Shown piece after piece: positions 32,900 through 60,436 of a stretch of DNA of 64,000 bases. The stretch comes from Filobasidium wieringae (taxonomy: Eukaryota > Basidiomycota > Tremellomycetes > Filobasidiales > Filobasidiaceae). The first letter of the stretch is position 1, and the number at the start of each line of letters is the position of its first letter. Under the pieces are notes generated by a model, which worked only from the letters and a program-made list of their open reading frames with translations, had not been told where the DNA came from and did no database searches. The DNA lies in the NCBI GenBank assembly GCA_001600055.1, contig BCIV01000009.1:620001-684000 (forward strand), in the 5' to 3' direction. Made by a program: the position numbers and the translations under genes.

Positions 32900-35800
32900 T
32901 TATCGTCGCGATCGACCCTTCGCTCCCTTTTTGCTGGGACGGGCATTCTTCGCGCGGCGCTGCGATGAGCAATAGAGCTCAGTACCGTGCCATCTCTGTT
33001 TGTAATTGTGTCGACTTACCTGTTCCTGTACTTTGCGCACTTTACGAATATCGTTCACGCTTCGTAACTCTGATCTGGCCGCTTGTCTACCTTGCGATTC
33101 GGGTTGTGAACCGAAATCGCCATTTTGTGCAAGCTTTTCCGCCTTCTTCTTTGCGATATAAAGCTTCTTCTCGTAGGTGGTCGATTTGCTATCAAGAGGT
33201 TTGGCGTCGGTGCTCTGGTTGTGGCGGAACTTTTTCATACCAGATGAGCCAGGAACCTTAGCGGTATCACCCTCAAGGTCACCAATCTTGGGCAGATGGA
33301 TACGCTTCTTAGCCTTCCATTCATCGAACCTTCCACTTCTGAACGAGGCCGGAAGTCGGGCACCACTCTCGGTCTTCACTAATTTTTTGTTATCCGAACC
33401 AGTCCCGTCCCCCTGTACAAACTTCTTTTTCTTCCGATCCCACGTGAGCAGGCTTGCTTTCTGTTGGCGTGCAACAATTCCATCATCACCGGCAAGATCA
33501 AATGTGGCATTACGTGCTTGTTCCACAAAGGACTGCCCATCCTTGAGCGAATATCTGCGTGACGACGGTTCGAATGGTCAGCTTGGATGAACTTCTTCGA
33601 TACACTAGACGTACCCTCGATCGGCAGCAGCACCTGATTGGAAATGAGACATGTAGAAGTCTTCATCCCTGAAACCGGAAGAATTCCGTGCATAAGACAA
33701 GCTGTCTGCTGCCGGAGTCTTTCAATACGATGGGTTCAGTTTGCCTAGAGTCTCGGAGTACAGACCACAAGACTCACCTCCGATTGCTCCTCATCATCAT
33801 CTGACATTTCTATATCGCTGTTGACTTGATCAGGTACCGCTGCGTCAGCCACTGTAGGTACCCTGCTTTCACCTAAAGCAGATCCGCTGCTTTGTTCTTC
33901 TTGTATTCTACGTTTTTTTACGACATGGTCGAGAGTCTTGCGCCTGCCTTTCATGATCTCTGCCGCAATCGAGGATTTCCCGCGGGTTCCCATCTCGAAG
34001 ACGGTTTCTGCAGGTTGAAATCCTGAGACTCGAGCCAATATAGCTTTGCGAGCAGCAGCTAAATTTGCCGAGTGGGGTCCTGCTTCACTATGCTGTCTCG
34101 CGGCAACACCCTCGTAGATCGGATGGACTCGATTGGCCGCGGTGAGGCTGCCTTGCAACTGCCATGCAGGATCTTTTACCATTGCTTTGGCTCGCCTGTA
34201 GCTTTCCTGGCTTGCCTTTCCTTGACTTCTCTCGTACATCGCTTGTCCCTTGCGGACCACGTCTTTTAAAGGCTTGAGGGTAGGAGCTCGCTCAGCAAGG
34301 GTCGTCGACACATGTTCGTTTTCGGTATCAATCGAGTCTCGAGGAAGCGGTCCAAAGATTAGACTGGACGAATAGTCTGTGTCATCACCTGAGTATCCGG
34401 TCGGCGGAAGAAGCGGTCGCCCCAAAAATAGTTGAAGGTCAAGGAGATACGGTAGCTCAGATGTTGTAACAAAGGACCAGGCCCAACCCTTTCTACCGGC
34501 TCGAGCAGTCCTACCGACACGATGAACGAATACTCTCGAACCTGTAGGGAAGTCGTAGTTGATGACATTCTCCATGATCGGAATGTCGATTCCTCTAGCG
34601 GCTACATCTGTGACAACTAGAAGATTCGTCAATCCCCTCCTGAAGCTGTCCATCTGAAATTTCCTTGCAGTTTGATCGAGCGATCCATAGATATGAGAGG
34701 TCGAATAACCGGCAGTCTGAAGGAGAGTGGAAAGGTATTCAACGTGATGTTTTGTTGCGGTGAAGATAATAGCCTGATGGGAAGCCATCGGCTTGAGTTT
34801 TCCGTTCGGTTTGCCACGATCTTTGTAAGAGCGCTTCTCGCGCTTCCGCAAGTCGTCCTCGCCGTCGTCTAAGTCATTCCGTGCGAGATTGACAGGTTGC
34901 GACAGATCGATCGGAACTTGAATAACCTCCTTGAGGAGGCTCAAAAGAGCCGCCTCCTTGTCAGCGGGTTTGACTGAAAAGAACGACATGCGCAGGTCTG
35001 AGCTGATTTTGCTCTCGGCATCTAGCCTGACCAATTTGGGATTGGTCAGTCCAGCTCGAGCGAAGTCAACCAGCGATTTAGGCAGCGTGGCGGAGAACAG
35101 AAGAGTTTGCCGAGTCGGGGGCAATCGATGCAAGATCTCGTGAAGTTGAACCTCAAAGCCCATTTCGAATAGACGATCAGCCTCATCGAATACGAGGTAT
35201 TCGATAGATCGTAAATCCAGATTCATCTCGACGATCAGATGCAGTAGACGACCTGGTGTTGCGATGATAACATCAGGATTGCTAGCAATCATGGAGAACT
35301 GCTCGTCAAGACCTTCACCCCCTACTACTAGGCCCCATCGCAGATCTGAAGAATGAGGATCCGCGTCATTGGTATCTGAAGCATCCCCGTCTCCAGCATG
35401 CCTTGATGTTTTATTCTGTTTAAACCCACGAGCCATATCTTTGCCAACACGCAAGATCTGGACGGCTAACTCTCGACCTGGGCATAAAATCAATGCCCGG
35501 GGGCCAAATTTGATCGAATGCTTGGCTCCAAACCGTTGCAACAGTGGGATCATGTAGGCTAACGTTTTACCCGATCCGGTTCTTGCCATGCCCACAAGAT
35601 CTCTTGGCGGAGACGCGATCGCAGAGGGTATGGTAGCACGTTGAATAGGAGTGGGCGTCTTGTAACCTCGGAGCAGTAGGGAACGCAGTAATGACGGTAC
35701 CAAGCCTGGAGAATAGGGAACATGGAACGCTCCGATAAGCCAGACGTAATGTTTGGACAACGGGGACCAAAACACTTACCCATGCTTTGCCAACTTCCTC

Positions 35801-40188: not shown

Positions 40189-40794
40189 ATGCCCAAGGCT
40201 TCAACCGAGAAGAAGGCAGGCAGCAGAGCCAAGAAGGATCCGAACGCTCCAAAACGGTAAGAAGCAGTCGCATCTGATGGAGTCGGTCTGATCTCAACGA
40301 CACTTTATTAGAGCTCTATCCGCGTTCATGTTCTACTCTACTGCTCAAAGGGACAACGTCAAGAAGAACAACCCTGGTATCGGATTTGGTAAGCCATACA
40401 CAAGTCACACGCTGGCTGTTGCTGAAGAGGTTGTGCAGGGGAAATCGGGAGAGAACTAGGAGCGCAATGGAAGAAATTGGATGCTGCTGAAAAGGCCGTG
40501 AGCGAAATTTCGTTATCGTTCAGTCACCGCCGTGTGCATTGCTGAGTCGAGATGCTTCCCTTGTAGCCCTATGAGAAGCAAGCTGCTGCCGATAAAGTTC
40601 GAGCCGAGCGTGAGAAGAAAGCGTATGATGCAATCTCGACGGGTCCTAAGAAATCAGCCAAAAAGGCTGTTACTACGTGAGATCGTATTGCTGGCACAAT
40701 GTACCGTATTGATACTGATCGTTATATCCCTCGATAATGTTGACCTGATTAAAGGGCTCCGGATGATGAGGACGAAGATGAAGATGAGGATTAA
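40189..40794 (+). CDS. NHP6: Nhp6-type single HMG-box protein
   Basis: Non-histone chromatin protein that bends DNA without sequence specificity and works with FACT. Exons 40189-40256, 40312-40388, 40439-40497, 40567-40676 and 40755-40794 give 117 aa. A basic N-terminus (KKAGSRAKKDPNAPKR) leads into the HMG box (ALSAFMFYSTAQRDNVKKNN, PGIGFGEIGRELGAQWKKLD, AAEKAPYEKQAAADK). The tail is acidic (DDEDEDEDED). Box length and hallmark aromatic residues are intact. This is an architectural HMG protein; the sequence-specific mating HMG factors (Mat2/Prf1 type) are much larger. It is the nearest gene upstream of the pheromone precursor, same strand. Confidence 0.92.
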
Positions 40795-41188
40795 CGGAAT
40801 GCTCTCATTGGAATTTGACATCCGATTTAGTTGCCCGCACTTCGTTTTCGTCTAGTCTTTTTTTCCTATTCTTAATGCGCCAGGACGTGCATGTTCTAAC
40901 CTGGATTTGTATTATTGTCGTATCATTCATATTTTGTGTCGGGCACAGCTGTGGTCACCGAGTCGTCCCAAGCGGATTGATCAACAACGATGTCCGTCTA
41001 ATAGAATGATATATGGCCATGTCCGTCTATCACAATAGCGGCGCGCTAAGGTGACAAAGAGCATGAAGGACCAAAGCGATGAAACGTGTCTCGAATGAGA
41101 GACAAAAACAGAAGAGGCCAATAACCTAACATCTTGTGAATTGTTGAAGAAGGATGAACCGACTGAGTGGATGAGTAGCCCCTAAGCG
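40795..41188. other. Interval between NHP6 and the minisatellite
   Basis: No gene seen. The sequence gatgaaacg (41079-41087) resembles the Ste12 pheromone response element TGAAACA in six of seven bases. Such short matches occur by chance. Confidence 0.2.
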
Positions 41189-41541
41189 AAAGCAAGAACA
41201 AAAGCGAGAACAAAAGCGAGAACAAAAGCGAGAACAAAAGCGAGAACAAAAGCGAGAACAAAAGCGAGAACAAAAGCGAGAACAAAAGCGAGAACAAAAG
41301 NNNNNNNNNNNNNNNNNNNNNNNNNNNNNNNNNNNNNNNNNNNNNNNNNNNNNNNNNNNNNNNNNNNNNNNNNNNNNNNNNNNNNNNNNNNNNNNNNNNN
41401 GAGAACAAAAGCGAGAACAAAAGCGAGAACAAAAGCGAGAACAAAAGCGAGAACAAAAGCGAGAACAAAAGCGAGAACAAAAGCGAGAACAAAAGTGAGA
41501 ACAAAACAAGCGAGAACAATACAAACGAGAACAAAACAAAC
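41189..41541. repeat. 12-bp minisatellite (gagaacaaaagc) broken by an assembly gap
   Basis: Direct tandem repeat. Left of the gap (to 41300) there are about nine units. Right of it (41401-41496) are eight units of gagaacaaaagc, then three 15-bp variant units (gagaacaaaacaagc type) to 41541. Positions 41301-41400 are exactly 100 N, the usual placeholder for a gap of unknown size, so copy number is not known. Because 12 is a multiple of 3, all minus-strand frames stay open and give repetitive pseudo-proteins; these are not genes. Each unit contains AACAAAAG. The array ends about 214 bp before the pheromone start codon. Confidence 0.95.
41301..41400. other. Assembly gap (100 N)
   Basis: One hundred undetermined bases inside the minisatellite. 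Its true length is unknown. Confidence 0.99.
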
Positions 41542-41754: not shown

Positions 41755-41952
41755 ATGGACGCCTTCACTTCTACCTTCGTTTCTTCCGTCGCCAACAACG
41801 ACTCTGCCCCTGTCAACGAGGAGCGCAACGCCAAGAACGCTACCATGGGGTACGGAGTCGCTTGTGTGATCGCCAACAGGGCGCCTGTCAACGAGGAGCG
41901 CAACGCCAAGAACGCCACTATGGGGTACGGAGTTGCCTGTGTCATTGCTTGA
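41755..41952 (+). CDS. Mating pheromone precursor with two tandem pheromone modules
   Basis: Lipopeptide mating pheromone precursor of 65 aa, single exon. It opens MDAFTSTF, as Cryptococcus MF pheromone precursors open MDAFTAIF, and ends in CVIA, the same CAAX farnesylation box. Residues 18-40 and 43-65 are identical 23-residue modules (APVN, EERNAKNATMGYGVAC, VIA) separated by Asn-Arg. By analogy with Cryptococcus, where the mature peptide follows APRN, the mature product would be EERNAKNATMGYGVAC with a farnesylated, methylated C-terminal Cys. Only the second CVIA is at the protein end. The first needs an internal cut right after it before it could act as a CAAX box. Multi-copy precursors of this kind are known from Rhodosporidium (rhodotorucine A). 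Its partner receptor class is the STE3 type at 60437. Confidence 0.93.
   Translation: MDAFTSTFVSSVANNDSAPVNEERNAKNATMGYGVACVIANRAPVNEERNAKNATMGYGVACVIA
41806..41949 (+). repeat. Tandem coding duplication inside the pheromone gene
   Basis: Copy 1 is 41806-41874, a 6-bp linker is 41875-41880, and copy 2 is 41881-41949. The 69-bp copies differ at eight positions, all third codon positions and all synonymous. Both encode exactly the same peptide. Confidence 0.95.
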
Positions 41953-42461
41953 TTGGTAAGTCGAAATGTCGATCCCCCCGAAATCCCGTATTCTGACCCT
42001 ATCCACATCACAGCACTCGGAAGATCACACTGTGGAAGGATGGATGGAGCTTGGAGTTTTGAATTGTAATAAATTTAGTGCATGGCAACGATAAAAGTCA
42101 TGCGTTCAAAAAACTCCGCCTAGTCCCTCCCTTGACGTGCCGATGCATATCTGTGGCTCATGCTCTTGTCTGGACTACACTGAGGCTCGTGCGCTCGTGC
42201 ACGGGGAAGGAAGCATGGCTGTTGTTTGCCATCAAGATGATATCGCAATGGGTATGATCGATCGCACATGGAGTAGTCTGTTAGATTTTTTTCGTTTCAG
42301 GATTTGGTAACATATTAACATCGCTAATGACAGTGGCGCAATGACCAGATGCGAGGCCAATTCATACGGTGGACCCGCGCACTAAGTGACAATGTCTAGC
42401 GTGCAAGCCGAATATCAGTAGCTGGTCAGAAGCCGCACATTGGCTTAGCTGCAAGAAGAGC
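41953..42461. other. Interval between pheromone and kinase genes
   Basis: 3' flanks of two convergent genes. No further pheromone-like CAAX frame or other gene was recognised. Confidence 0.4.
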
Positions 42462-45400
42462 TTACTCTATAATAGTGTCGTAAACCGATTTATAAGCCCA
42501 AACGTTCCCACGAAGGCGCTTAACGTCCAGAGATAAAAGCCCTGGCAGATTACGCAACCTGGTTAACTCGACGGAAAAACGAATTTCTTCCCCAGAATCG
42601 ATACTAGTGTATATAACGTTAACTGAAGTAAAACTCATGCTTTCCAGGTCATAGCGATACTTACAGAACAGGTACCTGGTTGTCCGATCTTTTTGGACTG
42701 AGTATAGCCGATCCACTGGTCACTAGCGCTTGAGCGACATCTAGCAGTGGTGAAGGCAAGCGGCCGGCACTCCCTTGTTGCGAAACGTATGAAGAGGTGC
42801 GTCTGGACAGCAGGTTTTTCAAGCTAGGTGATTGCTGCCCAATGTGATGTGTGTGCTTGGCATCTCCATCCATTGACTGAAAGACGATACGACTGTTTGT
42901 CAGAGTTGAATCACTTCCGGCCCGCGATACTTACAGGTATGTGCTGATCAAGACCGTTGGAAATGCCAGACGTCGTCGCAAATTTCAATCGATCTGGAAC
43001 GACAACCCGCTTGCTTCGGGGTCTCAAGCACCTCAATTTGCAAACGCCCTCTAGCTTGACGTCAATGCCCATATCAAGAAGGACCTGATTCACATCCCGC
43101 ATGATGTCTTCTGGAGATCTCGTGCTTAAGGTTGCTTGGTCGACAACGCCTGTATGGAACCGCAGCATGTTTTCTGTGAGGATTGGTGCGGGAGGCGTTA
43201 GGCCTTTCGTTGAGCCGACCGGTTTGTCGCCCAAAGTAGATTGCCTAGGAGAAGGTCCTGAACCGTCTTTATGGTTCGTGTCGCTACGAGTGGATGAGAG
43301 TTGGGGAGCAACTTGTCTAAGATCCGGCTGTCGTGCGTTGTCACCGCGCAGGGACGCAGCCGAAGGTACCATCACCCCAGGAGCCGAGAGATCTTCCACG
43401 GTTGTCTTTTCCCCTGCGACAGTAGTATATGCAGCTGTCCTTGCTGAACTCTTTCTTCGAAACCAATCCATCACTCTCTTTGCTGCAGAACTTGACGTCC
43501 CAGAAGTGAACGGTCCTCGTCGGTTGTGTTTCTCGACACCTGGCTGCGTATTGCGACCGGAGGTCATCGTCCTCTCTTCGCCAGATTGCGTTGCCCTGTT
43601 CGAGGCATGTCGGATATAAGTACCACACGGTGATTACAGCCCATCCGGAAAACTTACTCAAGACGAGGGATCATTCTGGCATCGAGCGATTGCTGATTCG
43701 CGGCCGATATCGGGGGTCTAGGTGCGTTGATCCTGCCTGGCGAATTTTCTGTAGGTATCTTTACATCCAGATCATTTCCAAGCGATTCGTGCAGAGGAGT
43801 GGCACACGAGAGAAGTTGCCTATCCGTAGGGATGTTCACGACCAAGTCCTTCGCTTGATCCTGTACCGCCTTGCTGGCTTCCGGCAACTCGCTAAATCCA
43901 TGAGCTGTCTTATCGGGGTCCACAACACTGGGCACGACATGATTATCGATAGTGTTCGAGTACGGTGTCGGTTTACTAATCGGTGCAGACATCTGCTGCG
44001 AACCCGTAGTTCCTTTTCGTCCGAGCTGTGCTACATCAGTCTGGACGTTGGTACTCGGTGTCTCTCTCTCAGCTCGAGCATATGATCTTTCCTGCTCTAC
44101 TGGGATCGCTGTGTACTCCACCTGTATCGTGTGCCTATTAGTGATTCTGGCTTTGGCCTTGCTATCATTGGATGACGCAAGAGCTTCGCTAGGGGCTTTG
44201 TTCTCTGGTATTTGAAGGCGATTTTCGATAGGCATGAGAACCGTCTTGGTGTCCTCAGAAACAACGGAGGCTTCTTTGCCATAGCTCGACGGAAAGTTAG
44301 ACTACGAGGCAGGAACCCAGAAACCAAATCAGCAAGAAGTTTCGACATGTCCAGGTAAGATACGTACAGAAAGGTCAAACAGAGATGTACTGTGCTCTTT
44401 TCGTACAGTTAAGTCTGGAGGATCCTTCGGCAAGAAGGCCTGATGAGCAAGACGATCAACCCGAATGGATTCTTGCTGGCGCATGCGTGTCTGCATGGCT
44501 TTCCTGGATATCGCACGCTTGTGGGTTTGCTGCTCTTGAGCGATCGCTTCAAGCTCTGACTCGCTCCTGTCGAATAGAGGGCGATATGCGCTTAACCATG
44601 GATGAGCCATAATGGCGTGAATGTCGCACCGGTTCAAAGGATCAGGAACCAGCATGCCAGCTAAAAGATCCCGAGCGTTGGACGACAGGTAATCGGGGAA
44701 TGTCAACGGGGTGTTAACGATATAACGGTAGAGTAGGTTGATGTTGTCCCCATCCGGATTGGCGGGATCGTCATCGAATGGTAGATATCCCGAAAGCATT
44801 GCGTATAAGATCACGCCGCAGGACCATATATCTACGGCCGAACCGACGTAGAGCCCTTCGGAGATCACCAACTCTGGCGCGGCATAACAAGGACTCCCGC
44901 ATGAAGTCGACATAAGGTCGTCCTGTTTCTGCTCAAATCGATTTGCAAAACCGAAATCTGTGATGATCACGTTGCGATGCTTGTCTAACAGAAGGTTTTC
45001 GAGTTTGAGATCCCGATGTACGATCTTTTTCTGATGCAGGTAATTCACTCCAGAGATCAATTGTGCGAAGAGCTTAGCTGCGTCCTTTTCCTTAAGATAG
45101 CGATGAGCTAAAATATGGTCAAAAAGTTCACCGCCTGAGCAGCACATACTGATGTCAGTTACGAACGTCGTACGATTAGAGCTATCCTTACCATTGGCAA
45201 AGTCTAGTATGATACCGATGTACTTCTCGGTTTCAATCACATCGAACAAGCGTACGATGTTGGGGTGACATACCGCCTAATCGACCACACAGGTTAGATG
45301 GTACCATGAAGACATATGCGACTACTCACCTTGAGCACACTAATCTCCCGCTCTACTTTACTCAATCTGGTATCGCTATCTACACTGCCTCTCCTGATCA

Positions 45401-45893
45401 ATTTGACTGCGACCTCCTCGCCATAATCTTTGTGTATCCCAAGCTTGACTTTTCCGAATTCGCCTTCACCTAGAGTTTGTAGCAGGACGTAAGGGCCAAA
45501 ATTGATTAGAGACCGACGAGGGTGGGCTTGTTGGTAATTGGCAATTGAGGGATGTAACGTATGTTCAGAGGAAGTCTCGGCCTCGGCGTCCAAAAGAGGT
45601 GTTCGAGAAGCGATAAGCCGAGGGTCGTATGTAGCCCTTTTAGTCAAGATGGTAGGTGATCCCTTAGTGAAGACCAGGGAGGTCCCTTGTGAAGGAGCTT
45701 GATTCATGGCCGAGTGAGAAGGGGGATTACTTTCGATGACCGGAATAGAGGGAAGAGTCCGTGACTGCGACACATTGGGACCGTACTTTGAGGTTGAAGT
45801 ACCAGGTGAAGGGCGAAAACTAAGGTCCTTTAGTAATTCTCCTGCAGGTAGGCTCTGATGACCACTAGGTCGTGAATGGTTTGTCATGACCAT
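42462..45893 (-). CDS. Kin4/Ppk1-type Ser/Thr kinase with C-terminal KA1 domain
   Basis: CAMK-group protein kinase. From the ATG at 45893 a Ser/Pro-rich N-terminus (about 120 aa) precedes the kinase domain. Motifs are [11 protein letters not shown] (P-loop), VAVKLIRRG (catalytic Lys), [12 protein letters not shown] (catalytic loop), DFGFANRF (metal site), [11 protein letters not shown] (activation segment) and [20 protein letters not shown]. The insert [20 protein letters not shown] is typical of Kin4/Frk1. A long disordered region follows. Two small exons then form a KA1-like domain: [20 protein letters not shown]...KLRCLRPR and [20 protein letters not shown]...[14 protein letters not shown]1 domains bind acidic membrane lipids. 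It is not Ste20 or Ste11, the kinases usually found at MAT. Confidence 0.87.
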
Positions 45894-46825
45894 AAGTTGC
45901 GGAGTATGTTGATGACTTGCAGGTTGATTTGAAAGCAGCGAGAGGGCACACACGTAGATGCAATAGTTTAATAGTCGAAAGGGTGGACCATTAGGTTTTC
46001 AGTGATCAGTCTTCCGTTTGATGACACTGAGATTGTTGATCAGGTAAATTCTGAGACCTTGAACAAATAGTCCGTTATATGCTGCTAAGGGCTACTATCG
46101 GCAAGGTTAAAGCGACTCTTGCTGCCCTCGCTGCATGAGTAATCCTATGTATCTTGAAGTAGAAATTGTAGAAAGAGAGGTAGGCGTGATGTGGCTTATG
46201 TCGTTTTGAACGTTTTTCTAAAATGAGGAGCAAAGACTTCGTGAAACAAATTGTCTCGCATGCCTCGGCTAGATGGCGGAGTTATCGGAATGATGATGGT
46301 GTCGATGCTAGCGAGACAACGATAATAATAATGATAACAATGTCTTGACGATAGCGACAATGTAGAATGTACAATGCACAATGATGTACTACTATGATCG
46401 CATGATCGGTGATGGATGCATTCATTTGTTGATCTTGTGTACCTTGCGCCAAATGTGCCAATGTTGTTTTTGTTTTGCCTACAGGCCCTATGGCCTAACA
46501 GCCGCGACAGTACGACAGTACGATAGTCCACACCCTTGTACATTTTCGTGATGCCACTTAGAAATTTAGTCCAATCGCAGACAGCTATCTACAGCTATCT
46601 GACTGTCGCAGATACCGTATCAATGGGCGGAACTCATTGCAAAGGATCTTTTACTAGATCAGTTGGATCAGTAGTAGGTGTTGTCACGCTGACCGGCAAC
46701 ATTCGGAATCTCTACATGTGCTCATCGTTCATATACAAGCTGTTTTGTGGATAACAAGGCGAGAATCGCTCCGTTCGATCATACGATTTGACTACGGTTT
46801 TTCCTAATCAGGTCTGTATGTCGCT
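45894..46825. other. Intergenic interval upstream of the kinase gene
   Basis: 932 bp with no recognised gene; it holds the kinase promoter and the 3' flank of BRR2. Short direct repeats (agctatct twice near 46583, acagtacga near 46505) are the only structure seen. Confidence 0.4.
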
Positions 46826-49800
46826 TCATTCCCGCATCTCATTGTCACTACTATCTTCATCTTCGGACTCTGACTCAGAATCCTCCGCCTCCGCAACGAT
46901 CAGCTTTTGCAGATCGAAATCCTGGTCGGCACCTTTTGTCAAAGGAATATGAGAGGCATGCTAAGGCTTCGCTTCGGCAGGGCTTACCAGTGTAAGAATC
47001 GCAAATCAGATATAGTTTCAGTTGATGCGAGCCTTGCGGCAAGGTGAACTGCAGTTTTGTCTTGAGAGTTTGCCTCACGGTCACTTTCTTTATCCCGTAT
47101 AGAGCACGGGAAGAATGGTCTCCCACTACCAACCACCAATTGACAAGCTTCTTGCCAGGGAACAAAGGCGCGTCAGCGATTTGGTCGTCAGCGGCGATAT
47201 CGGCTTCATCGACATCTCGACTAAGAGTAACCTCCATGGTGATCGGTTCTCCGGAGATCAGCGTTTGGCTTTCGTCCAGCCGATAATTCACCTCCATGTT
47301 TGGATAGGCATTAACAAACCGAGCCACCCGAGCCCTGAGGGAGCAATGTGTCAACGAGTAGGATAACTTGTGGTGGATCAAAGTCACCTACATTTCCCTG
47401 TCATCGAGCTTCAGTAAGCTGTTCCGCTCGTCATCTTCCAACTCCATCAGGTCGTAAACAGAATCCAAACCGGTCGCCTTGCACCGCATGAGCAGATCCT
47501 TATCAAAATATGGAACCTGCTTCAAGGGCAAATCCGAATCCCAAACAGCTTGCACACACATCTGGCTGAGATCCATAGCTCCAAGTGCGTTGAGATACGA
47601 GTTCGACGACATAACGTCTACGCATGCTGACAACAAATTCGAGATCCGTCTGAGCACGTTCTGCTGGTCGATTACGAGATCAGCCGGAAGTTTCATTCTC
47701 GAGAAGTGAGCCTGCAGCAGGAGGAAAGTCTTGAAATGGGGACTACTGTAATCTACCGCGTCCAGCTTGACCGGCAGTCTTTCATACAGTCGCCTTAGAA
47801 GGATGTCTTCGTGATGCCTGATAGGCACAGTTTCGAATTCTGCAGCGGATGCTACGATTTCTAGCAATCCCTTCAATTTAGTTCTCTCCTTTAAGGACAG
47901 ACTGAACGTCTCTACCGTGAGATAGGAAATATAGTAGAAAGCTAAGACAGATCAAATGAGCGTGTTTGGCAGCGATGCTACTGGGGAAATGAACGCTCAC
48001 AGCAGATCATGCCCAGATTGATTGCAGTAGTATCCATGTCATCTATAACGGCTCGACCAGATCAAAATGTTGTCCGACCTTCGACAGGATGTGAGTATCT
48101 CACCTTCAATCGTAATGCAACGCTTGTCTGCGAGATCCGATAAAGTGGTCTCCACAAGCTCACTGAGGTGATCCGACAGGTGTCGATGGCTGGTGCCTTG
48201 TAGATTATAGAACTAGCAGGGATGGGGGAAAAGTTACGCTATTAGAGCTTTCGATGATTTTGTGTGAGAAGCACTCACGCCTGGGTTTTGGGTCATGCGG
48301 CGATAGAACTAGCAAATGGGACGATCAAAAACCTGCTCGCTTCCTGGTGCTTTGCATCGCTTCACTTACCCATGTCCAAGTACACCAATCAACCGCATCT
48401 TGCTTGTTCTCGATGGTCCTCGCAACAATCTCCGCATTGAAATGGTCCCATAAGTTACTAGGTAACATAGACTCAACGGGCAAAGCTTCGCTTAGAAACT
48501 TGGTGAAGAAGTCCTTCCGCGTCTGCTGAAGCATGAGGACGCAACGACTGGACGCATCCACTGAAGGCCTGCAAGCTCGACCCATCATCTGGAGTACGTC
48601 TGCAATTGCATAGTCGACATATCGATGTTCGCGGCCCTCATAGGTTTGCACTCCCATAATGATCACGAGATAAGCCGTTGATGGTAGGCTCCAAGCAGAA
48701 TCCTGTCAGAAATGCCAATCAGAAAGGACACCATGAGATGTTATGGGCAACGACTGACCTTCGATGCTACCATCACTTTGATGGCTCCTGCAGACATCAG
48801 GCTCGAGACAATGCGCTTATCCTGCTTACTCAGCGCTTCATGATAGTATCCTATCCCGAATTTCAAGCATTCGATTAAGCCCTGATCGTGTAGATGATCG
48901 AGATGTGGTTGTAATTCAGCTTCGGTCATGTTGAGAAATCGTCGAGGATTGGTTTCCGCCAAGCAATAGCTAGCAAGGTCATTAGCTGTGATTTTGCACT
49001 GCTTGCGAGAAGGAACGAAAACGATTGCCGGCTTGTTCTGAGCCATTTCGGTCAAGGCGAGGAATGCTGGCTTGACCATCGACAGCATTAATGAAGGGAA
49101 ATGTGGAACGTTATAGCTTTGGAGGTGAACTTCCAGTGGAGTCGGCCGGGAACTAGCAGAAGCGCTGGTCAGACAATGAATATCGGTGCTGAACTACAAC
49201 TCACCTTGGGGAGAAATTGAAAACGGCAGAGGTGGGCGCACCCAACCATTCACCTACGTCTCGGGCATTGGCAAGAGAAACACTCAGCGCAACAATCCGG
49301 GTCTTTATCTCTACCTGAGCAGCCACGTATCGCGCTCGTGATAGGATGACCTCATACGTAGCACCTATTTCACCACTGCCTATTAGGTGAAGGTCGTCGG
49401 CTATCAGAAGCGCAATTTCCTGAACATCCTTGCGGCGTTTCCATCCACGACTACAAGCATCCCACTGGAAGCAGGCACCGAGTCAGCTCAAAGGCACATG
49501 CACGGTGACGAATCTAACTTACCTGAGAAGGGGTAGCGACAACCAGATCTGAACCACGCAGGGTGGCCAGATCGGCGGTAGTATCACCTGTGAGCGAAGC
49601 GATCGTCTTTCCAGCACCCAAGCCGCCCAAGCGGGACTGCCAATCGGCGGTTCTTGCTTCTACCATCTCCGGATACGGAAGGATACATACAGCTCGAGAA
49701 GACCCGGGCTTCGCCCACAAACGGAAAAGGGCAATCTCCGCACAAACAGTTTTGCCGCTGCCAGTTGGAGCACCGATGAACACGTTATCATCTGTGGAAT

Positions 49801-52800
49801 AAAGCGCATGGAAGGCTTGGTTCTGTATTTTGTTGAACTGTAAGAAGCTTTGTTGATAGATGGCTTGATAATCCGAATGGTGCATTGCCGTGACAGGCAG
49901 TGGTTGCAGGTCGAGGAGAGGGGTATGAGCTGGGAAAGGCTCCGGGCGGATCAAATGCTGGAACGATAGGGGTAGTCTTGTTTCGGAATGTAACCAGCGA
50001 TCCGATATTATGGATATATAGTAGTTCGGCGGAACAGGTTCAGAGATGGGCACAGAAAGAGTGATCACATGCTCGTCCTCGGCGTACCGTTGACGCAGGG
50101 AGAAGGTGTCATGATAAAGCACTTTTTCGCCGTCTACGTCTTCAACCAAGATCCAGAAAAGCTGATTGTTTCCATGCTGCTGTTCGTTCCATTCAAAGTC
50201 CGGCATAACGGTAAGGACTATCCGCAAGAGGGACCGAGTGATGGGCTGTACTAAGGCTTGTAACTCAAGCTTGGGAAATTGATGGACTAGGCGATGCAAC
50301 CGCCGACCTTCGTTTGGTAGCCCGACCAGTTCTCCTAGCTCAGACGGCTGTAAATCGAAATATCGATACCATGGGAATTCTTTGCGTTCCGCTTTGTAGA
50401 CCACATTCGCGGGGATGTTCTTGAACTGGCGAAGCGGCGTCATAGAACGCCACATACGCCGTTCAACCATTTTGCAGAGGTCCAAAGCCAGTCGAGTTGG
50501 GCCGGCCCACCCTCTTTTCAAACACATCTCAAACATCGCTCGTAAGATTCGGCCTGCGGATTGTTGCACGAAAACCATATCGGCTACTATGGTGAACCCG
50601 TCCAACTTCAAGCCGGAGATATAGGCTTGTAGCAGGACATTGACCTTTGCGATCGGTTCGTCCACATTCTCTTTGACCGGGATAGGAACTCGTTCCAAAA
50701 GTTTCGCAAGTTCTATTTTTTCCTCTTGACGAACAGGTATAAGACGAAACTCGTTGGACAAAGCGAACACCCGAAAGACGTCAATTACGTTCATGGTAGG
50801 TCGCAAGTGCTGATTATACGTTGCCATCGAGGTGTAAGTGATATAGTAATGAGAAGCAATCCTCCCTAGTTCAGTGCCCTTGAATGATCCGCTTTGCCGA
50901 TCATATTTGATCAAACTAGTCTTTTCCAGTAAGCAAGCTGCTGTATGAATCAGATCGGCTGCAGAGAGAGCTAGTCAGCTAGAACGGCATGTTCGGGGTA
51001 AAGTTGTACAAACCTCGTTTTTGCAGCAGCCCAGGGTCACCTTCCATGTAATCAGCGCCAACACTGTAGAGCGCCGGAGAAGCTAGCATCCGAACGTAAC
51101 TGCAAACATGTTCTTAGCATTTAAGAGATGCTTCGAATCGAAAAACTTACAGATAAGTGTAACCCAACCAGTTGATGGCTTCGTCTCGGTTGCGAATCGA
51201 CCCCAAAACTATCTCAGCATTCAGGTTGTCAACAAGTCTGGAGACCAACTGAGATTCGATAGGTAATTGCTGATTGAGAAGACTAGTGTAGTATTGTAGC
51301 TCGGCGTGATTGGTAATGATAATACCTTCGCCAAATTGGTCATGTTGAGGACGACCAGCTCGACCAAGCATTTGAAGGACATCTTGAGGGGAAAGTTCGG
51401 ACCACTTGCCCTTCTCTGGGTTGTAGATTTGTGTACCCTTTATGATAACCGCATGGGCAGGCAAGTTGACACCCCATGCAAGAGTGGCAGTGCAAACGAG
51501 GACCTTGATATGCCTTTCATTGAATAGTTCTTCGGTCACAGCTCGATCCTCTCTGTTCATACCAGCGTGGTGTATCCCAAATCCAAACGCCAGCAAGTCC
51601 TTCAGGCTGGCGTCATTGACCTTGGCAGATTCCTCCTCTAAGACCGCACGGCTAGCACCGTTTGGGTTGATGAATTGAGCTTGCTGCTCGCGCTCCAGTG
51701 CTAGATCCCGCAAGAACTTAGCTGTCTTGGCAGTTTCCTTCCGCGAGTGCACAAAGACCATCACCGGGTTGTCCTGACTAACCTGATCAAGGACTTTTTC
51801 GTAGCAGACCTCGTTCATGATCTGAAAGCGCTTGATGGCTTTCTTCTCAGTTACACCGATGAACTGCTGACGAAGAGGACACGGTCTATAGGTAGAATCG
51901 AAGTAAAACAAGCCTTTATTGACATCCACGCGGAGAAAAGAGGCTACATCCTTGTAATTTGGTAACGTCGCGCTCAATCCTACGATGCGGACGTCATCGT
52001 GATTCTGATTCATGCGACGAACCGTTCGTGCTATCACGCTCTCCAATACAGGTCCGCGATCGTCGTGTAACAGGTGGATTTCATCGACAATGAGTAACCT
52101 CACCAGATTGGTGTAGCTTGTATCGGAATTTTTTCGGGTAATCACGTCCCATTTCTCCGGTGTAGTAACAATGACTTGTGTCTCTGCGATTTGCTGTTTG
52201 GTCATCTGAGAATCTCCCGTAAGCTCCGCTACCTTGATGCCAAGCGGCGACAGACGTGCTGAAAACTGCTGCACTTGCTCTTGAACCAATGCCTTCATTG
52301 GTGCTACGTATACGATCTTGAACGCATCTCGGTCGATCAAGCCGGTCTCGTCGTTGCGATACTGTCCGATCGTCCTTAACATGGTAAGCATCGCGCAATT
52401 GGTCTACAAATGTCAGCAGGATATTACATCAACTGGCATGTATCTCTACGGGCATATCGAGAGCTTACCTTTCCAGCCCCAGTAGGAGCACATAGCAACA
52501 TCGGTTCGTCCGTTTCGAACGCTATAGGATACACCTTGCTTTGGACAGGATTGAGTTGCGTGGTCTTCCCCCATACTGCGTGAGTCCAGATGGGCAAGCT
52601 CGCGATCTTCACAGGCAGTTCATCCGCGGCAAGAACTCTCTTCTCTGGAATGGGAACGTGTATCTCCTCGTATCCTTTGCCTGTCCGTTTGAAACTTCCC
52701 TGTGGTAATTTGACTTTCTTGTTGGACATCAAATGTCCGCCCTGCGTAAATATCAGGCTCTCTATATCCACGGTTCTGTGTCCTGTGGGTGCAGAGCGAG

Positions 52801-54103
52801 CGGACTCATCGGCGATGGACATTACACTATCTTGCAAAGAGCCGGAATTCTGTTCGATCGATGTATGAGCTCTTGCGCTGCCGAGCGACCGTAAGATCCA
52901 CCCGAGGCCTTTTTCTCGCATAGCCACTTCGATGTCCCGCTTTTCCTCGTCATTGCTTCTGGCAAGTTTGGTACACCATACGATGGCATCTCGATTTTTG
53001 GTTAATAAAGCAATTAATTCGAAATTCTCGTAACCAAAAGTTTCCGCAAGGGAATTCTCCAAATCACGTAGATCCATATCCGAAGAAAGGCATTCCAGGG
53101 CTTTGCTAGTCAACTCCGCCGATTGTATCGAGTCTGGGTACGCAGAGGTGATGACTCGTTGAAGCCAGAAACCGTCGATATCGTGTGGCGAAATCTTTCC
53201 GTCTGATGATTTGGCTTGACGCGGTTGAGTTGGCGCACCCAAAACCAAAGCGCCGGCATCGTCTTCCTCTGACTGTCCGGGACCAGAGTATTCCTGCTCG
53301 ATCATTCGGCCTTCGTCCTCCTCATCACTTTCTTCATCTCGCACCTCATAGACACCTTCGTCGTCATCTTCTTCGTCGTCGTCCCCGAATAAGACAGCGA
53401 CCCCTTCCTCTCCAGCCAGATTTGTTCCATGTAAACCGGCTTCATCGTGCTTGCTTAAGGTAGTTGATTCGTCGACAGAGTAATCGGTGATCTTCTTCGA
53501 GAGATTGATAAGCTGACTCCATACGTCACCAGCTACTGCCCCCATGATGCTTTCCACTTCCTTTTTCCGGTCAAACTCTTTCATATCTTCGCTTTTCAAT
53601 ATTTCCAACACCGTATCTGTTGCAGATCGAACGACATCCTGCGCTTGATCACCCAATGATTGATGAACTATACCGAGGAGTAGCTCATATATTTCCCGAG
53701 TTTCAGCAGTTTTCGGTCGGTAGTTCAGCCCTTCGAGATCTTGTGTGGCTTCCAGAATGTCAGAATAGCGTTGATCATTGCGAGTACTAGCTTCCGCCCT
53801 TCGACGGACTCCACGTTCTGAAATCTCAGTAGATGCTGAATCCGCCTTCCTCTTCTTCTTTTCTAATTCCTTAGGTCCATCTCTGCCAGCCCGAGAGCCC
53901 ATATCTTTGATCGAGACTCGCCCAGCAAGTGATTCGGCAATACCGGTTGGTTCGTTATCGCGTCTAAAGCCTCGCTCTATTGATAATTGTCATCAGAAAA
54001 CCCACGTCTTGTACAGGATGAAGAGATAAAGCTTGCCTTGGTTAACTACAAGACTGCTCATCGCCCCATAGTTGAACTCGGAAAGATCGCGTTTAGGCGG
54101 CAT
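46826..54103 (-). CDS. BRR2: Spliceosomal RNA helicase Brr2
   Basis: Ski2-like helicase of the U5 snRNP that unwinds U4/U6. Start at 54103 ([20 protein letters not shown]). N-terminal region: [20 protein letters not shown], then an acidic stretch. First cassette: [81 protein letters not shown] first Sec63 unit follows ([20 protein letters not shown]). Second cassette: [20 protein letters not shown], and the characteristic inactive DDLHLIG near 49,395. The C-terminal Sec63/C2 unit ends in an acidic tail at 46826. The degenerate second cassette marks Brr2 rather than Slh1. The first intron (53977-54036) uses a GC donor. Many introns; not every border resolved. Confidence 0.93.
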
Positions 54104-54442
54104 TTTGGCAGGAAGACTAGGGCAGAACGCCAGGTGACTGCAAGGAGATAGGCCACTAATCCGAGCGTCTCAGAATGCGGAGCGGGAAGCAATTGATGTG
54201 GGGAGTTACTAATTAGGTTGTGATACAGGCCTCAGTAGTGGTTAACGATACGCAATCCACATGTTGCAATGGATGGCATACATGACTGGGGGCGAAACAA
54301 TTAGAGAAGCCGCAACAACTGCGCGGACTTCTGGCAACACAGAAAAGTACCCGACAGACATGGCAGATGACAAAAGAGCAGCGACAAGATGCCTATCTGC
54401 TTACTCTGTAGAGATTGAGGCACGTCTCACCCTCCTAGACTT
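54104..54442. promoter_or_regulatory. Divergent promoter between BRR2 and the SET3-like gene
   Basis: 339 bp between two divergent start codons. The short frame at 54261-54446 has no homology and is probably leader sequence. Confidence 0.4.
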
Positions 54443-57409
54443 ATGATGGATCTGTCCCAGCCTTTGGGTGTTACAATGACCCATGACGATGAAGCCGCTC
54501 TATTGTTGTTAGGCCTGTTCGATCCAAAGGAGAGTCAGCCGGTGATATCTACTGGAGGTGCACCTCGACCGGACTCAGAAAGACAGAGTTTATCCTTGCC
54601 ACATGGCCTTGACAGGATTAACACGTCGGAAGCGTCTCAGGCTACATTATCAGAAGACGATCCGCCAAGACAGTCAGCATCTTATGAACCACAACCAACC
54701 GGCTCACGGCTGAATGATATAGGACGGTCAACATCACCCTTGCTACATCCTCGCAAGCGTAAACGAACTTCCGCGGGAAATATCAATCATATTCGGTCGC
54801 AAGGAATGAATCGGATTTCACATGAACTTCAAGCCGAAGCATCTCTCAATAATACTTCGTTGGCTCTACCTTCTAAAGCCCGGCCGGACCTGGAACACTT
54901 TATGGGGTATGACAATCAGCTCTATCGGTGCATATGTGGGACCACGATGGAACCAGACGAAGGAATGTCTATACAGTGTGAGAGCTGTCTTGCGTGGCAA
55001 CATGCAGGATGCTTTGGCTTGTCCGGATCCGATCTCGAAGGTGATTCCTATTTCTGCCAACTATGCGACCCCGACCGCGAACATTCTGTGAATGAACCTT
55101 ACATCATCCACATCAGACAACTCGCGTACGCCGTTGAAACGACGGCAAAGGCCCCTGAGTCTATCACCTCAGCTGCTACAGGCGATGCTGCTGCTATGCG
55201 AGATATCAAACGTGCCAAGTTAGCCGGGATTCCTCGAGGCAAGGGTCGTGCGCGTCCTGGTAGCGCTTCAGCGAGACCCTCTGATTCTCCTATCGACAGC
55301 GTGAGTACGCGGACAGAAGAATCGCTGGTCAATGCTGGTCCATCAAGAGGGGTCAGGAAAAAATCCTTGATGAACGTTCGCTTGCATAAAGGAAGAAACC
55401 TTACTTTATCCTCCGAATATGGGGAACAGGTATCACGCAAGAACGAGCCATCGATTGAACGTTCTGATAGTAATTACGATCAGGACTTCGTATCGAGGCA
55501 ATTGGACTATGTAAATATCACGTCCAACATCGCCAGAGATGAGGCGACCTGGATTGTACTTGAAGCGTTGCGACGCGATGCGTTAACAGCTGCCCCACTT
55601 TTTGGCTCCAACCATAAGGATGGGAAGATCACATGCTCTGATGAGGATATTGCTATTCCAGCAACGATGCGTTTCGGATTGTTGGATGCCCCGATTCCGC
55701 CGATACACTCTCGTCGGGGTGCAAAAAGCCTCAACGATGTAACCTCAACGATCGCTGTCAAACGTCTTGATGAAGAGCGTTCCTCTCAAATTGCCGCTCG
55801 AACTCAGGATGAGCTTCTGATGAAGACACAAGAGAAAGCAAAGTATGCTGTATATGCCTGTACTGATATCCATCCTGGCGCTTACGTAGGCGAGTATCGA
55901 GGGGAAGTGTATTCTTCTATGGAGTATGAGTTGAACCGAGCAAATCAATACCTTAGTCTGGGGCTACCAAAGGCCTTCGTGCGCCGGCTAGGTTCACCGT
56001 TAGATCTGGTTATCGACTCTCGCAAATACGGGTGTGAGATGCGGTTCATCCGTTCAAGTTGTCATCCCAACGTGGTTATTAGGCCTATGCAATCAAGTGA
56101 AGGACCGGTCAACGATTCTCAATCTCGACTGATCTTTGGCGTATTCACTGTAGAACCCGTATTGAGAGGAAGTGAGCTGACACTAGGATGGGAATGGGAC
56201 GATCAGCATATCGCACATGAGATTTCGGCGATACAGACTCCGTGCGATGTTCATACGTCAAACCGTATGCAGGAAGTCATCAGAAATCTCACACGAGCTC
56301 TGCCGGGTTGTGCTTGCACTGATCCTCGCTATTGTGCATGGGCCCAATTGTCTACAATGTCTACAAAGGCAGCTGGTCCCAATGAGCCTATTGCCAAAAA
56401 TACTCATTTTGGCCCGCTTATTGGGGTAACGAGGCAGTGGAGGATATCGTCAGAGGACTTCAAGTCCGCCATAGAAGACTCGACAGAAGATGCTGTTCAT
56501 TCTGATCCGGTCATATACAGCTTGTATCCGGACGACCAGGACTTGACAGGATGCCTCGAAACTGCGTCGCCAGGCGCTTTCAAAGCGGCTTCGCTCGCAT
56601 GCTCACGGCAAGCAAGCTTAACTCCGCCTCGTACACCAATCAGTCTGCCTGCACCGAACATGGAGGAATCTGGCTCTCGCTTTTTTCCGTCTCCTGAGAA
56701 TGTGGAGTCCGAATATGATTACGGATCTGATGCCATTTCCGAAAGCTCAACTCTCACAGAACCACTTTCTCCACCTATCTTCGATACGGCAGACACTAGC
56801 GAAGACGTGATTCTCTCCTATGGTTCCATTACGGAAGGCCAAGACAGTTCGGCACTACCTTCCTCCCTGTCGTTACGAACAGCTGAAGCGGCCTCGAGGC
56901 GGTTTATGCCACAGCTATCCGAAAGTACACCTTCCCATCTGGGACTGCCGAGCACGACCCATGTGCTCGATATTCGACCGCTCCCGGCTGTCGATGTCGA
57001 GAGAAAGGAACAACTCGACCTCGCGGAACCAACTGAAGGGACTCAAAACGCTTTAAACGCTTCGTCGGACATTGTTCAGTTGTCGAAGAAACGGCGTATT
57101 GACCTGACAAGATTCATGCTGGATGACTCGAGTCCTGTTCATCGACCTCAGAGGAGCGAGAAGAAAGCGCCAAAACCGGACGTAGCCGCAGTCACTGCGC
57201 AGATACTGCATCCAGTTGAATCTCCATACACCCTCGATGTTGCGCAGGATCATTTGGAAGATGGAACTTCGGATGCGCCTTGGTGGCGATCGACAATCAA
57301 TCCGCCTCTCGTAGGTGCAGCTGGGCTTAGTAAAGCTTCTGCAACAGGATCTGTTTCCGGAGAACATGATGGCCTTACTGCGCTACAGGCTGGGCAGTCA
57401 TCCGACTAG
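54443..57409 (+). CDS. SET3: PHD-SET protein of the Set3/MLL5 type
   Basis: Core subunit of a Set3C-like histone deacetylase complex. One unbroken exon of 988 aa, unusual among these intron-rich neighbours. The PHD finger (about residues 155-200) has YRCICGTTMEPDEGMSIQC, ESCLAWQHAGCFGLS and YFCQLCDP. The SET domain (about residues 470-595) has KYAVYACTDIHPGAYVGEYR, DLVIDSRKYGCEMRFIRSSC, HPNVVIRP, LIFGVFTVEPVLRGSELTLG and WEWDDQHIAHEI. The usual NHSC and catalytic Tyr of active SET enzymes are changed (SSCHPN), as in Set3, which lacks demonstrated methyltransferase activity. A Cys cluster (PGCACTDPRYCAW) follows. The remaining C-terminal third is Ser/Pro-rich. A second ATG directly follows the first. 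Confidence 0.87.
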   Translation: MMDLSQPLGVTMTHDDEAALLLLGLFDPKESQPVISTGGAPRPDSERQSLSLPHGLDRINTSEASQATLSEDDPPRQSASYEPQPTGSRLNDIGRSTSPLLHPRKRKRTSAGNINHIRSQGMNRISHELQAEASLNNTSLALPSKARPDLEHFMGYDNQLYRCICGTTMEPDEGMSIQCESCLAWQHAGCFGLSGSDLEGDSYFCQLCDPDREHSVNEPYIIHIRQLAYAVETTAKAPESITSAATGDAAAMRDIKRAKLAGIPRGKGRARPGSASARPSDSPIDSVSTRTEESLVNAGPSRGVRKKSLMNVRLHKGRNLTLSSEYGEQVSRKNEPSIERSDSNYDQDFVSRQLDYVNITSNIARDEATWIVLEALRRDALTAAPLFGSNHKDGKITCSDEDIAIPATMRFGLLDAPIPPIHSRRGAKSLNDVTSTIAVKRLDEERSSQIAARTQDELLMKTQEKAKYAVYACTDIHPGAYVGEYRGEVYSSMEYELNRANQYLSLGLPKAFVRRLGSPLDLVIDSRKYGCEMRFIRSSCHPNVVIRPMQSSEGPVNDSQSRLIFGVFTVEPVLRGSELTLGWEWDDQHIAHEISAIQTPCDVHTSNRMQEVIRNLTRALPGCACTDPRYCAWAQLSTMSTKAAGPNEPIAKNTHFGPLIGVTRQWRISSEDFKSAIEDSTEDAVHSDPVIYSLYPDDQDLTGCLETASPGAFKAASLACSRQASLTPPRTPISLPAPNMEESGSRFFPSPENVESEYDYGSDAISESSTLTEPLSPPIFDTADTSEDVILSYGSITEGQDSSALPSSLSLRTAEAASRRFMPQLSESTPSHLGLPSTTHVLDIRPLPAVDVERKEQLDLAEPTEGTQNALNASSDIVQLSKKRRIDLTRFMLDDSSPVHRPQRSEKKAPKPDVAAVTAQILHPVESPYTLDVAQDHLEDGTSDAPWWRSTINPPLVGAAGLSKASATGSVSGEHDGLTALQAGQSSD

Positions 57410-57906
57410 ACTGGTAACTGGTAAGTCATGATTCCGCATAAACATCAAGGCGGTGATACTGAATCACATCTCGGACCTACTGAATATCAGTGCGTTCGTG
57501 ATGCTCGGGGATGAAATGGCGTCGAAGTGATTCCTCATGTAGGAAGATGTGAGAAGCACTCACAACATGCGCCATAAGGGTTATGTATCAGAACCTTTAA
57601 CTTATATAGCGACCCAAGATACGGTTCAGAATATTATCTATCGGGATGCAATCTTGCTTTTGACGCGTGACGGCTAAACAATAATATGAAACGCATTTTG
57701 CTTCCGGTCCCATCAGCTCGACGGTCAGCGTGTCGCGTGCATGCGAAAGCTTCACAGACACGCACCTAGCCTAGACTTAGCCATGTTAGCCAGGTCTAGC
57801 TAGGGTAAGAGCTAACAGATCAAAACGTAACTAGCAATCACTGTAAACCACACAAACACGTCCGAGCTCTCGAGTGCGGGGCCACCTGAAAAGCAGTCGG
57901 TTAGGG
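57410..57906. other. Intergenic interval, no gene seen
   Basis: 497 bp between two co-oriented genes. A short palindromic-looking tract (agccatgttagccaggtctagctaggg, about 57,779-57,806) is the only structure noticed. Confidence 0.35.
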
Positions 57907-59473
57907 ATGTCACAGCTTCTGAATCCTGAAGCGCAAGTCTTCGAGGTGAAGCAGCAGAGCGAGGTCAGTAATCATGAGCCAAATGTAACCGGACACTCCC
58001 AATTCGCAACAAACCGTTCCAATCTGGCCACTTACTCTCCCCTGAAGATAAAACCCGTAGTGCGCAGAGACTCAAGTTGTCGATAATGCGGTTCTCGGTA
58101 CTTACTTCGATCACGGCTGACAAACAGGCATACGTCAGCCATTCATCTTTGGAAGACATTCACAGTACACTCTATACTTTTCGGAACGATGGGACCCAGA
58201 TGAAGTCACATCAACGCTCGATGATAAGCACAGGAGGAAACAACCAGGTCAGCAAGTGATGGATCTGGTCTGAACCGCCTTACTAAGCGAATCTGAGCGA
58301 TGAATGCATAAAAGCAGACAAGCGGCGCCCAAAGGATGTTGCCGTCGATAGACAGTCCAGAACGTCCCGAAATGCCTTTAGTTGCAGATGAATGGGCGTC
58401 TGTTGAGCCAAACCACAGATTGTATGGCCATATGAGTTAGTACTTCCTCCGATAGGACCGTCCTTTGATCGGGCTCAAAATGCTGGAATTAACAGCAAAC
58501 GCAGCCAAGCGAACTCGAAATCTGGCTCACCAGTCCCTGAATACGGACTGGCACTGTCGAGGTTGCGGGACCTCGTATACTGGTGACGTCGGAAGTTGCG
58601 TTCTGTGAGTGAAGGTCGATTGGCCTGTCTCTAAAATCATACCCTTTTGATGGCTTTGGGAATCAGCTGTGTAAATAGGAACTCCTTCCGGTCGATCGAA
58701 AGATCGGATGTTCAAGCATGGCCAGATAGTACTCAAGAATCTCCGGAATCTAATCGTCCTTTGAATCTCCATTACAACCAAAAACTATCAGTCGGGAATG
58801 CTGCTTCTCCTCCGAGAAGTTTCGAAATGTACCCTTCGCCGACTACCACACTAGAGAAATTATCTAAGCATGTACAGGCGCTGGTCAAGATCGGTCAATC
58901 TGGAATAGGTCTGAAGGATGTCCTGGTTGAGGGGGATATAAGCCTTTGCATGGACCTGGGTATGAAAGGTTTGATTGTCAGTGAGCAATCCGATACACAT
59001 CAAATACCCGGTCCTGAATCAACAAAACAGGGCAGAGAAGCTCTAAATCCATGGAAGAGCCTGTCCATCAATATTCCAGTATGTCTACGAATAGCCGCTA
59101 TGGCTAACCGCTAATGAGCTGGACGATCAGGACCAACCTTTCATGAAGCAGATTCCCAAGCCACCTTTGGGCAGTGTTGCGGGTGACTGGACATGCTCGT
59201 GCGGACGAGAGGTTGGCTGTTGATCTGCAATCTGAAACATATCAGAGCTGATGCTGTCTTCCAAAACAGAACTGGGCCAAGCGAACGGTTTGTTCACGTT
59301 GCTTCCCTGGCATCGAACCGGAGTACAAGGCGATCGTTTACGACAGGGTTCGGCCAGTCTTGGAGCTTTTGGCATCGCAAATGCGCGAAGTATATACTCA
59401 ATGCGAGGAGGATCGGTTGACGTCTGAAGAACGAAGACTGCGTCGCGAGCAAAATTATCCTCCGAATTTGTAA
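57907..59473 (+). CDS. Putative RNA-binding protein with PAM2 motif and RanBP2-type zinc fingers
   Basis: Partly resolved multi-exon gene. The start at 57907 gives MSQLLNPEAQVFEV, a PAM2 motif (LNPxAxxFxP-like) that binds the MLLE domain of poly(A)-binding protein. Exon 1 (57907-58056) joins in phase to 58128-58247 (AYVSHSSLEDIHSTLYTFRN), possibly an RRM. Further exons contain DWHCRGCGTSYTGDVGSC (58,550-58,605), a helical segment (TLEKLSKHVQALVKIGQSGI), and the last zinc finger, DWTCSCGRENWAKRTVCSRC, spliced from 59131-59211 and 59270-59473. The C-terminus ends ERRLRREQNYPPNL. Borders between 58,248 and 58,679 are unresolved. RanBP2 zinc fingers commonly bind single-stranded RNA. It lies in the pheromone-receptor interval, next to STE3. 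Confidence 0.6.
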
Positions 59474-60074: not shown

Positions 60075-60169
60075 TGATGACTGTGAGATTCGAACTCACG
60101 CCCCGAAGGACCGCGGATCAGATACTGATAACCTTAACACGGCGGATTAGACCACTCTCCCAAGTCACC
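60075..60169 (-). tRNA. tRNA-Leu (anticodon AAG) with a 15-nt intron
   Basis: On the minus strand the acceptor strands GGTGACT and AGTCATC pair, with discriminator A. The D arm is GGA-GAGTGGTCTAA-TCC. The anticodon stem CCGTG/CGCGG encloses 22 nt beginning TTAAGG; removing a 15-nt intron leaves a 7-nt loop with anticodon AAG. A long variable arm (CCTTCGGGG) marks a type II tRNA, and the T arm GTGAG-TTCGAAT-CTCAC is perfect. A TTTTT Pol III terminator follows directly. Anticodon and variable arm fit Leu. Confidence 0.93.
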
Positions 60170-60328: not shown

Positions 60329-60436
60329 TGCTCAAGCCATGTCATACGGCCATGTATGTATTCATCCTTTCCAGTTATGTTTCGGCAACGTACACAGTTA
60401 ATCGAACATAAAAATTAACTACGGCCAATCCATATC

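Follow-up and report, generated by a model that had tools for sequence, protein, structure and literature searches.

A predicted Cryptococcus-type pheromone precursor with two identical in-line modules in the P/R mating-type locus of Filobasidium wieringae

Pheromone precursors with several modules in line are already known in fungi, namely in red yeasts, Microbotryum, cereal rusts and Hypocreales. In the RHA precursors of the red yeasts Rhodosporidium and Sporidiobolus, tandem peptides are parted by CAAX-like sequences (PMC3068285, PMC3236058), and only synonymous changes are reported for RHA2 of S. salmonicolor and S. johnsonii strains (PMC3236058). Several tandem pheromone repeats per precursor are likewise described for Microbotryum and for MFA1 of cereal rusts (PMC10977897), and several CAAX-like motifs occur in one small precursor in the h-type (HPP1) of Hypocreales (PMC3068285). 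Removal of the Kex2 sites from the h-type precursor of H. jecorina did not abolish fertility (PMC3068285).

For Tremellomycetes, precursor lengths of 37 aa in C. depauperatus (PMC9296135), 39 aa in C. heveanensis (PMC2873909) and 41 aa in Cystofilobasidium capitatum (PMC8545103) are given. Heterothallic Cryptococcus species carry several separate pheromone genes per mating type (PMC12510652), whereas the locus described here has one gene with two modules. Main-text passages on Kwoniella and Cryptococcus (PMC12510652), Cystofilobasidium (PMC8545103), Phaffia (PMC4915694, PMC5103461), C. depauperatus (PMC9296135), Filobasidium (PMC9210288), Trichosporonales (PMC6730849), Naematelia (PMC13085929), C. 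heveanensis (PMC2873909) and the C. amylolentus complex (PMC6561019) make no mention of in-line modules. The statement of the initial annotation that a poly-pheromone route is undescribed in Tremellomycetes agrees with this main-text literature, supplements and figures aside, and the gene reported here may tentatively be regarded as encoding the first two-module precursor in the class. A published survey rule, M-X(15-60)-CAAX-stop (PMC6730849), would just admit a precursor of 65 residues.

We analyzed a window of 64,000 nucleotides, bases 620001-684000 of contig C9, from the F. wieringae genome (19.76 Mb in 33 contigs). An ORF on the forward strand (41755-41952) runs from ATG through TGA and encodes 65 residues (Table 1). 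Its translation bore out what had been noted from the letters: residues 18-40 and 43-65 are the same 23 residues, APVNEERNAKNATMGYGVACVIA, with every letter matching, and both modules terminate in CVIA, with Asn-Arg linking module 1 to module 2. Module 1 is preceded by ..VANNDS-APVNEER and module 2 by ..VIAN-R-APVNEER, which have A-N and APVNEER in common, and the duplicated block appears to consist of the pro-segment tail, the peptide and the CAAX box. Because the linker and module 2 repeat the tail of the pro-segment (A-N ... APVN), module 2 would have an N-terminal cut or maturation site of its own. On reading the 65-aa precursor we found no dibasic KR, RR or KK. A search of the 19.76 Mb genome with the protein matched the ORF alone, giving one copy and no second pheromone gene. 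The cleanest intron pattern in the region is a candidate intron that lies directly 3' of the stop codon and leaves the protein unaltered. We also tried 12 donor/acceptor combinations (introns of at least 40 nt, simple GT/YAG patterns), and none would end the protein at the internal CVIA, so exposing the internal box would need proteolysis.

Table 1. Features of the pheromone gene and its surroundings, in window coordinates
Feature	Position	Strand	Basis or remark
Pro-segment MDAFTSTFVSSVANNDS, residues 1-17	41755..41805	+	Translation; MDAFT common to Cryptococcus MFalpha P0020 and P0021
Module 1 APVNEERNAKNATMGYGVACVIA, residues 18-40	41806..41874	+	Putative maturation motif PVN(E/E)R; internal CVIA
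Linker Asn-Arg, residues 41-42	41875..41880	+	Translation
Module 2, residues 43-65, same 23 residues	41881..41949	+	C-terminal CVIA; TGA stop at 41950-41952
Candidate 58-nt intron in 3' UTR (GTAAGT ... CTGAC ... CAG)	41956..42013	+	Sequence pattern only
12-bp tandem array GAGAACAAAAGC, upstream of pheromone gene	41189..41506	+	Broken by 100 N at 41301-41400
STE3 pheromone receptor gene, 367 aa	60437..61733	+	PF02076 exons, gene model, relatives
STE3 exons	60437-60638, 60698-61015, 61092-61500, 61559-61733	+	Four-exon model, splice sites picked by eye
Part of DBP10 RNA helicase ORF	33745..35772	-	6-8 kb left of pheromone gene
Protein kinase gene, between pheromone and STE3 genes	44329..45998	-	PF00069 in 44329-45273; ORF list
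BRR2/SNRNP200-like helicase, between pheromone and STE3 genes	46875..53989	-	
PHD/SET-domain protein, between pheromone and STE3 genes	54419..57409	+	

From its sequence, the product of the ORF is predicted to be a Cryptococcus-type lipopeptide mating pheromone precursor with two in-line modules, in support of the pheromone-precursor reading of the initial annotation. The ORF is short (65 aa) and ends in a CAAX box (CVIA), and the protein exceeds the curated cut-off of Pfam PF08015 (fungal mating pheromone) with 27.1 bits against 22; as yardsticks, two MFalpha proteins scored 21.2 and 22.7 bits, and one module with the pro-segment scored 18.8. A putative N-terminal maturation site (P19, N21, E23) precedes the peptide, and a STE3 gene lies 18.5 kb downstream in the same locus. 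When residues 1-40 were compared end to end with MFalpha3 of C. deneoformans (P0020), 17 of 43 aligned positions were identical (E 5e-7 for this single comparison), and the alignment score was reached by none of 2000 shuffles in which M and CVIA were held fixed. The five sequences of alignment A2 all agree at several columns, including P19, N21, E23 and C37. The MFalpha precursors P0020 and P0021 (the latter of C. neoformans) share with the window protein an MDAFT start, the motif (A/V)P-x-N-(E/Q)-E and a C-terminal CVIA. However, they have 38 aa and one module, whereas the protein described here carries two modules, and its predicted mature peptide is distinct and longer. A precursor of this family would give a farnesylated secreted peptide that activates a STE3 receptor.

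Searching the protein database with the window protein alone returned no relative, and there was none among viral contigs or solved structures. We additionally searched with a profile of two rows, the window protein and an MFalpha sequence; all four candidates were Cryptococcus MFalpha, an outcome given by construction, with P0022 lacking CVIA and P0023 being partial. The independent evidence for relatedness is therefore the direct P0020 comparison with its shuffle test, not the profile search. A two-module relative was found neither in the protein database nor among viral contigs nor by the profile search. A genome search with C. deneoformans MFalpha gave no match, even to the F. wieringae gene itself, and is hence uninformative, and a six-frame PF08015 scan of the whole genome missed this gene, which marks its sensitivity limit, and gave one sub-threshold match on contig C7. 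The pattern C-V-(I/V/M)-A followed by TRR occurred 27 times in the genome and 24 times in a reversed control, which is chance level. Four small ORFs in the window have a loose CAAX end, namely the pheromone gene and ORFs ending in CTFS, CLLF and CVTK; the latter three bear no resemblance to the pheromone gene and were rejected as extra pheromone genes. Scanned in the same way, 30 kb of flanks contained a single such ORF, ending in CATA (L034:4000-4092, ~6.3 kb to the right of STE3), which is without the MDAFT and PxN motifs and probably arose by chance.

The internal repeat itself is not a product of composition. When the protein was shuffled 2000 times, exact internal repeats reached at most 5 residues, against the 23 observed. 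We also scanned the window for stop-to-stop frames of at least 40 aa, omitting frames that contained N and skipping words with fewer than 6 different residues. Repeats of at least 7 aa occurred in 4 of 905 frames; the pheromone ORF had the repeat of 23 aa, and the other three (10-13 aa) were other frames of the same DNA. The shuffles and the frame scan together rule out a chance repeat. Start to start, the modules are 75 nt apart in the DNA.

The initial annotation had raised the prospect that a module was duplicated by assembly error. An assembler may have doubled one module near a gap and a repeat array, and both are present upstream of the ORF: a gap of 100 N lies inside the 12-bp tandem array, 354 bases from the ATG. 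However, the gap is outside the ORF, which it leaves untouched, and an assembler-made copy is expected to be identical, whereas the two modules differ at 8 nucleotides with the reading frame preserved. An artefact of this kind is therefore very improbable.

The same differences bear on whether module 1 is a product. Across their 69 nucleotides, modules 1 and 2 show 8 differences; each falls at a third codon position and each is synonymous, giving dN 0 and dS ~0.79 over 16.3 synonymous sites. With transition weights ranging from 1 to 4, the chance that all eight would be synonymous is 4.6e-4 to 1.3e-3 with constraint on the C-terminal module only and none on module 1, and 1e-5 to 4e-5 if neither module were constrained. 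Shorter stretches were also compared, with module 1 taken as free: GYGVACVIA alone has 5 of 5 synonymous changes (P 0.014-0.022), CVIA alone 3 of 3 (P 0.06-0.09) and the VIA codons alone 3 of 3 (P ~0.1). These sequence comparisons make a good case for constraint on module 1 taken as a whole; for its internal CAAX box they give a weak indication of constraint. The synonymous-only pattern fits purifying selection on both modules and makes it probable that module 1 is a working product. It is not accounted for by gene conversion, because changes after the last conversion should again hit amino acids. As a control, an MFalpha pair differs at 6 of 24 pro-segment residues and at 0 of 14 later residues (Fisher P 0.067); this comparison of two proteins is small, and it agrees in direction with a pro-segment that drifts faster than the mature part.

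The chief rival to two working modules is that only the C-terminal module is processed. By this account a 75-nt tandem duplication was gained, and module 1 became part of an extended pro-segment, which cleavage at the second APVN/E(E)R site removes. The terminal CVIA would then require no new protease, the N-terminal cut site is present in each module, and the test on the internal VIA codons (P ~0.1) puts little pressure on such a scheme. However, it must accommodate 8 of 8 synonymous differences at dS ~0.79, for which a free module 1 gives P 0.0005-0.0013. MFalpha pro-segments differ at 6 of 24 residues, so a module serving as pro-segment should drift in its amino acids. We regard processing of the C-terminal module alone as unlikely, and as still less probable that module 1 is freed with a tail (CVIA-N, CVIA-NR or CVIA-NRAPVN) and is either unprenylated or prenylated at an extended box, acting as a weak pheromone or a decoy. 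Such a tail would fit a precursor that has no clear cleavage signal immediately behind VIA, and in Coprinus work prenylation only increased pheromone efficiency (cited in PMC3068285). However, a tailed product leaves the identity of the internal CVIA unexplained, although that part of the divergence test is weak.

The reading that we favor, and consider somewhat probable, is that each precursor yields two farnesyl peptides, prenylation being preceded by cleavage between VIA and the second APVN. CAAX farnesylation is taken to require a free C-terminal box, and if both modules are products the cut must precede CAAX processing. A cytosolic endoprotease would separate the two modules at or close to VIA/Asn-Arg, leaving module 1 with a free CVIA end of its own. 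Each half would then be farnesylated on Cys, stripped of VIA and carboxymethylated, and a cut on the N side before E23 and E48, or one residue earlier, would be followed by export. The output would be two molecules of one farnesyl peptide ((E)ERNAKNATMGYGVAC) per precursor, and the benefit would be dose. That the first copy needs a cut before CAAX processing had been put forward in the initial annotation; the synonymous-only divergence and the splice test speak for it, whereas the test on the internal VIA codons does little for it, and we infer release, farnesylation and the cut site. Against the proposed cut stand the lack of a dibasic site and of a known protease for VIA/NR, and an N-terminal cut alone would leave a CVIA-NRAPVN tail. 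For the later steps of this route, the genome contains matches to the beta-type prenyltransferase, Ste24-type M48 and ICMT families, which any fungus should have and which therefore favor none of the readings.

Mature tremerogen a-13 begins at a Glu that is conserved in Cryptococcus pheromones (PMC2873909). Because the invariant Glu in the protein described here is E23, the mature peptide is probably ERNAKNATMGYGVAC-farnesyl-OMe, with the one-residue-longer EERNAKNATMGYGVAC as an alternative. The longer form, which had been named as the mature peptide from the letters of the ORF, thus stands as one candidate, and ERNAKNATMGYGVAC is at least as likely.

RHA-type precursors of Pucciniomycotina resemble the protein described here in having in-line modules that each carry a CAAX or CAAX-like box. 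RHA spacers finish on a basic residue that comes directly behind the box. In the window protein a basic residue is present but follows an Asn (NR after VIA), and VIA leads into Asn-Arg and a repeat of the tail of the pro-segment. The synonymous-only divergence (P 0.0005-0.0013) is an indirect pointer that more than one module may mature. To our knowledge, the cutting of rhodotorucine-kind precursors is poorly defined. Rust MFA1 has three similar, non-identical repeats (PMC10977897), whereas the two repeats here are identical. Hypocreales h-type precursors carry three copies of (LI)GC(TS)VM, with Kex2 sites in H. jecorina (PMC3068285); the window protein has no such triplet and instead has two 23-aa CVIA modules, each ending in ACVIA.

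Multiple identical pheromone genes in Cryptococcus are seen as raising the output of a poorly diffusing peptide (PMC9296135), and by analogy the same dose pressure could favor in-line duplication. We tentatively propose, with slightly more doubt than confidence, that in F. wieringae dose is raised by in-line duplication and not by extra genes, that a cytosolic protease uncovers the internal CAAX box before farnesylation, and that this is a second, independent basidiomycete origin of poly-pheromone maturation, outside Pucciniomycotina. If true, pheromone dose has been raised in two ways in one fungal class, by extra genes in Cryptococcus and by in-line modules here. An internal CAAX box that is conserved suggests that proteolysis comes ahead of prenylation, and a gene with two modules offers a small, tractable test case for the use of internal boxes.

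The pheromone gene sits in the P/R mating-type locus. For the STE3 protein, the best 8000 candidates were scored and 17 relatives listed; the top named among these 17 are from Naganishia liquefaciens, Kwoniella mangroviensis, Cryptococcus sp. DSM 104549 and C. gattii, and Agaricomycetes stand lower among them, a ranking that most likely reflects a tremellomycete gene. DBP10 lies inside the P/R loci of Kwoniella and Naematelia (PMC12510652, PMC13085929). A locus of the Kwoniella/Cryptococcus type was considered and rejected for F. wieringae; DBP10 is nearby, but STE12 is elsewhere, with STE12-family exons found solely at C10:860584-861017, on another contig, and none inside the P/R locus. Cryptococcus P/R loci have a lower G+C than the genome (PMC12510652), whereas the G+C of the P/R core here (41755-61733) is not lowered, at 0.490 against 0.489 for the rest of the window.

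The 12-bp array upstream of the pheromone gene has ~9 copies of GAGAACAAAAGC on either side of its 100-N gap, and all 12 exact two-unit matches of GAGAACAAAAGC in the genome fall in this array. The 755 bases that precede the pheromone gene contain 17 occurrences of the word AACAAAAG, and the 1000 bases before STE3 contain two, both reversed. These sequences may resemble HMG-type pheromone response elements. Upstream of the array (window 40190-40796) there is an NHP6-like HMG-box gene of several short exons; the NHP6 reading was made by eye, and the Pfam match of one exon, at 19 bits, is below the cut-off of 25.4.

The nearest described layout is that of Filobasidium floriforme CBS6241, in which the pheromone and STE3 genes lie within 21 kb and the HD genes are on another contig (PMC9210288). 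In F. wieringae the P/R region spans ~20 kb, and a likely HD mating-type locus is also on another contig, at C5:648994-650717, where matches to a KN-type and another homeodomain lie ~1.5 kb apart in divergent orientation. These matches likely represent a divergent HD1/HD2 pair, apart from the P/R contig, and by this comparison the layout resembles the unlinked P/R of F. floriforme more than the Kwoniella or Cryptococcus one. F. floriforme has one precursor gene, and its genomes measure 26.4-27.4 Mb against 19.76 Mb here (PMC9210288). A second STE3-like gene is present outside the P/R locus at C5:736536-737167 (-), ~86 kb from the likely HD pair, and the corresponding loci L004 and L006 contain no CaaX ORF of 20-90 aa. 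On the P/R contig, a homeodomain match of 31 bits was found in a 337-aa frame at C9:745136-745282 (L057), ~63 kb to the right of STE3.
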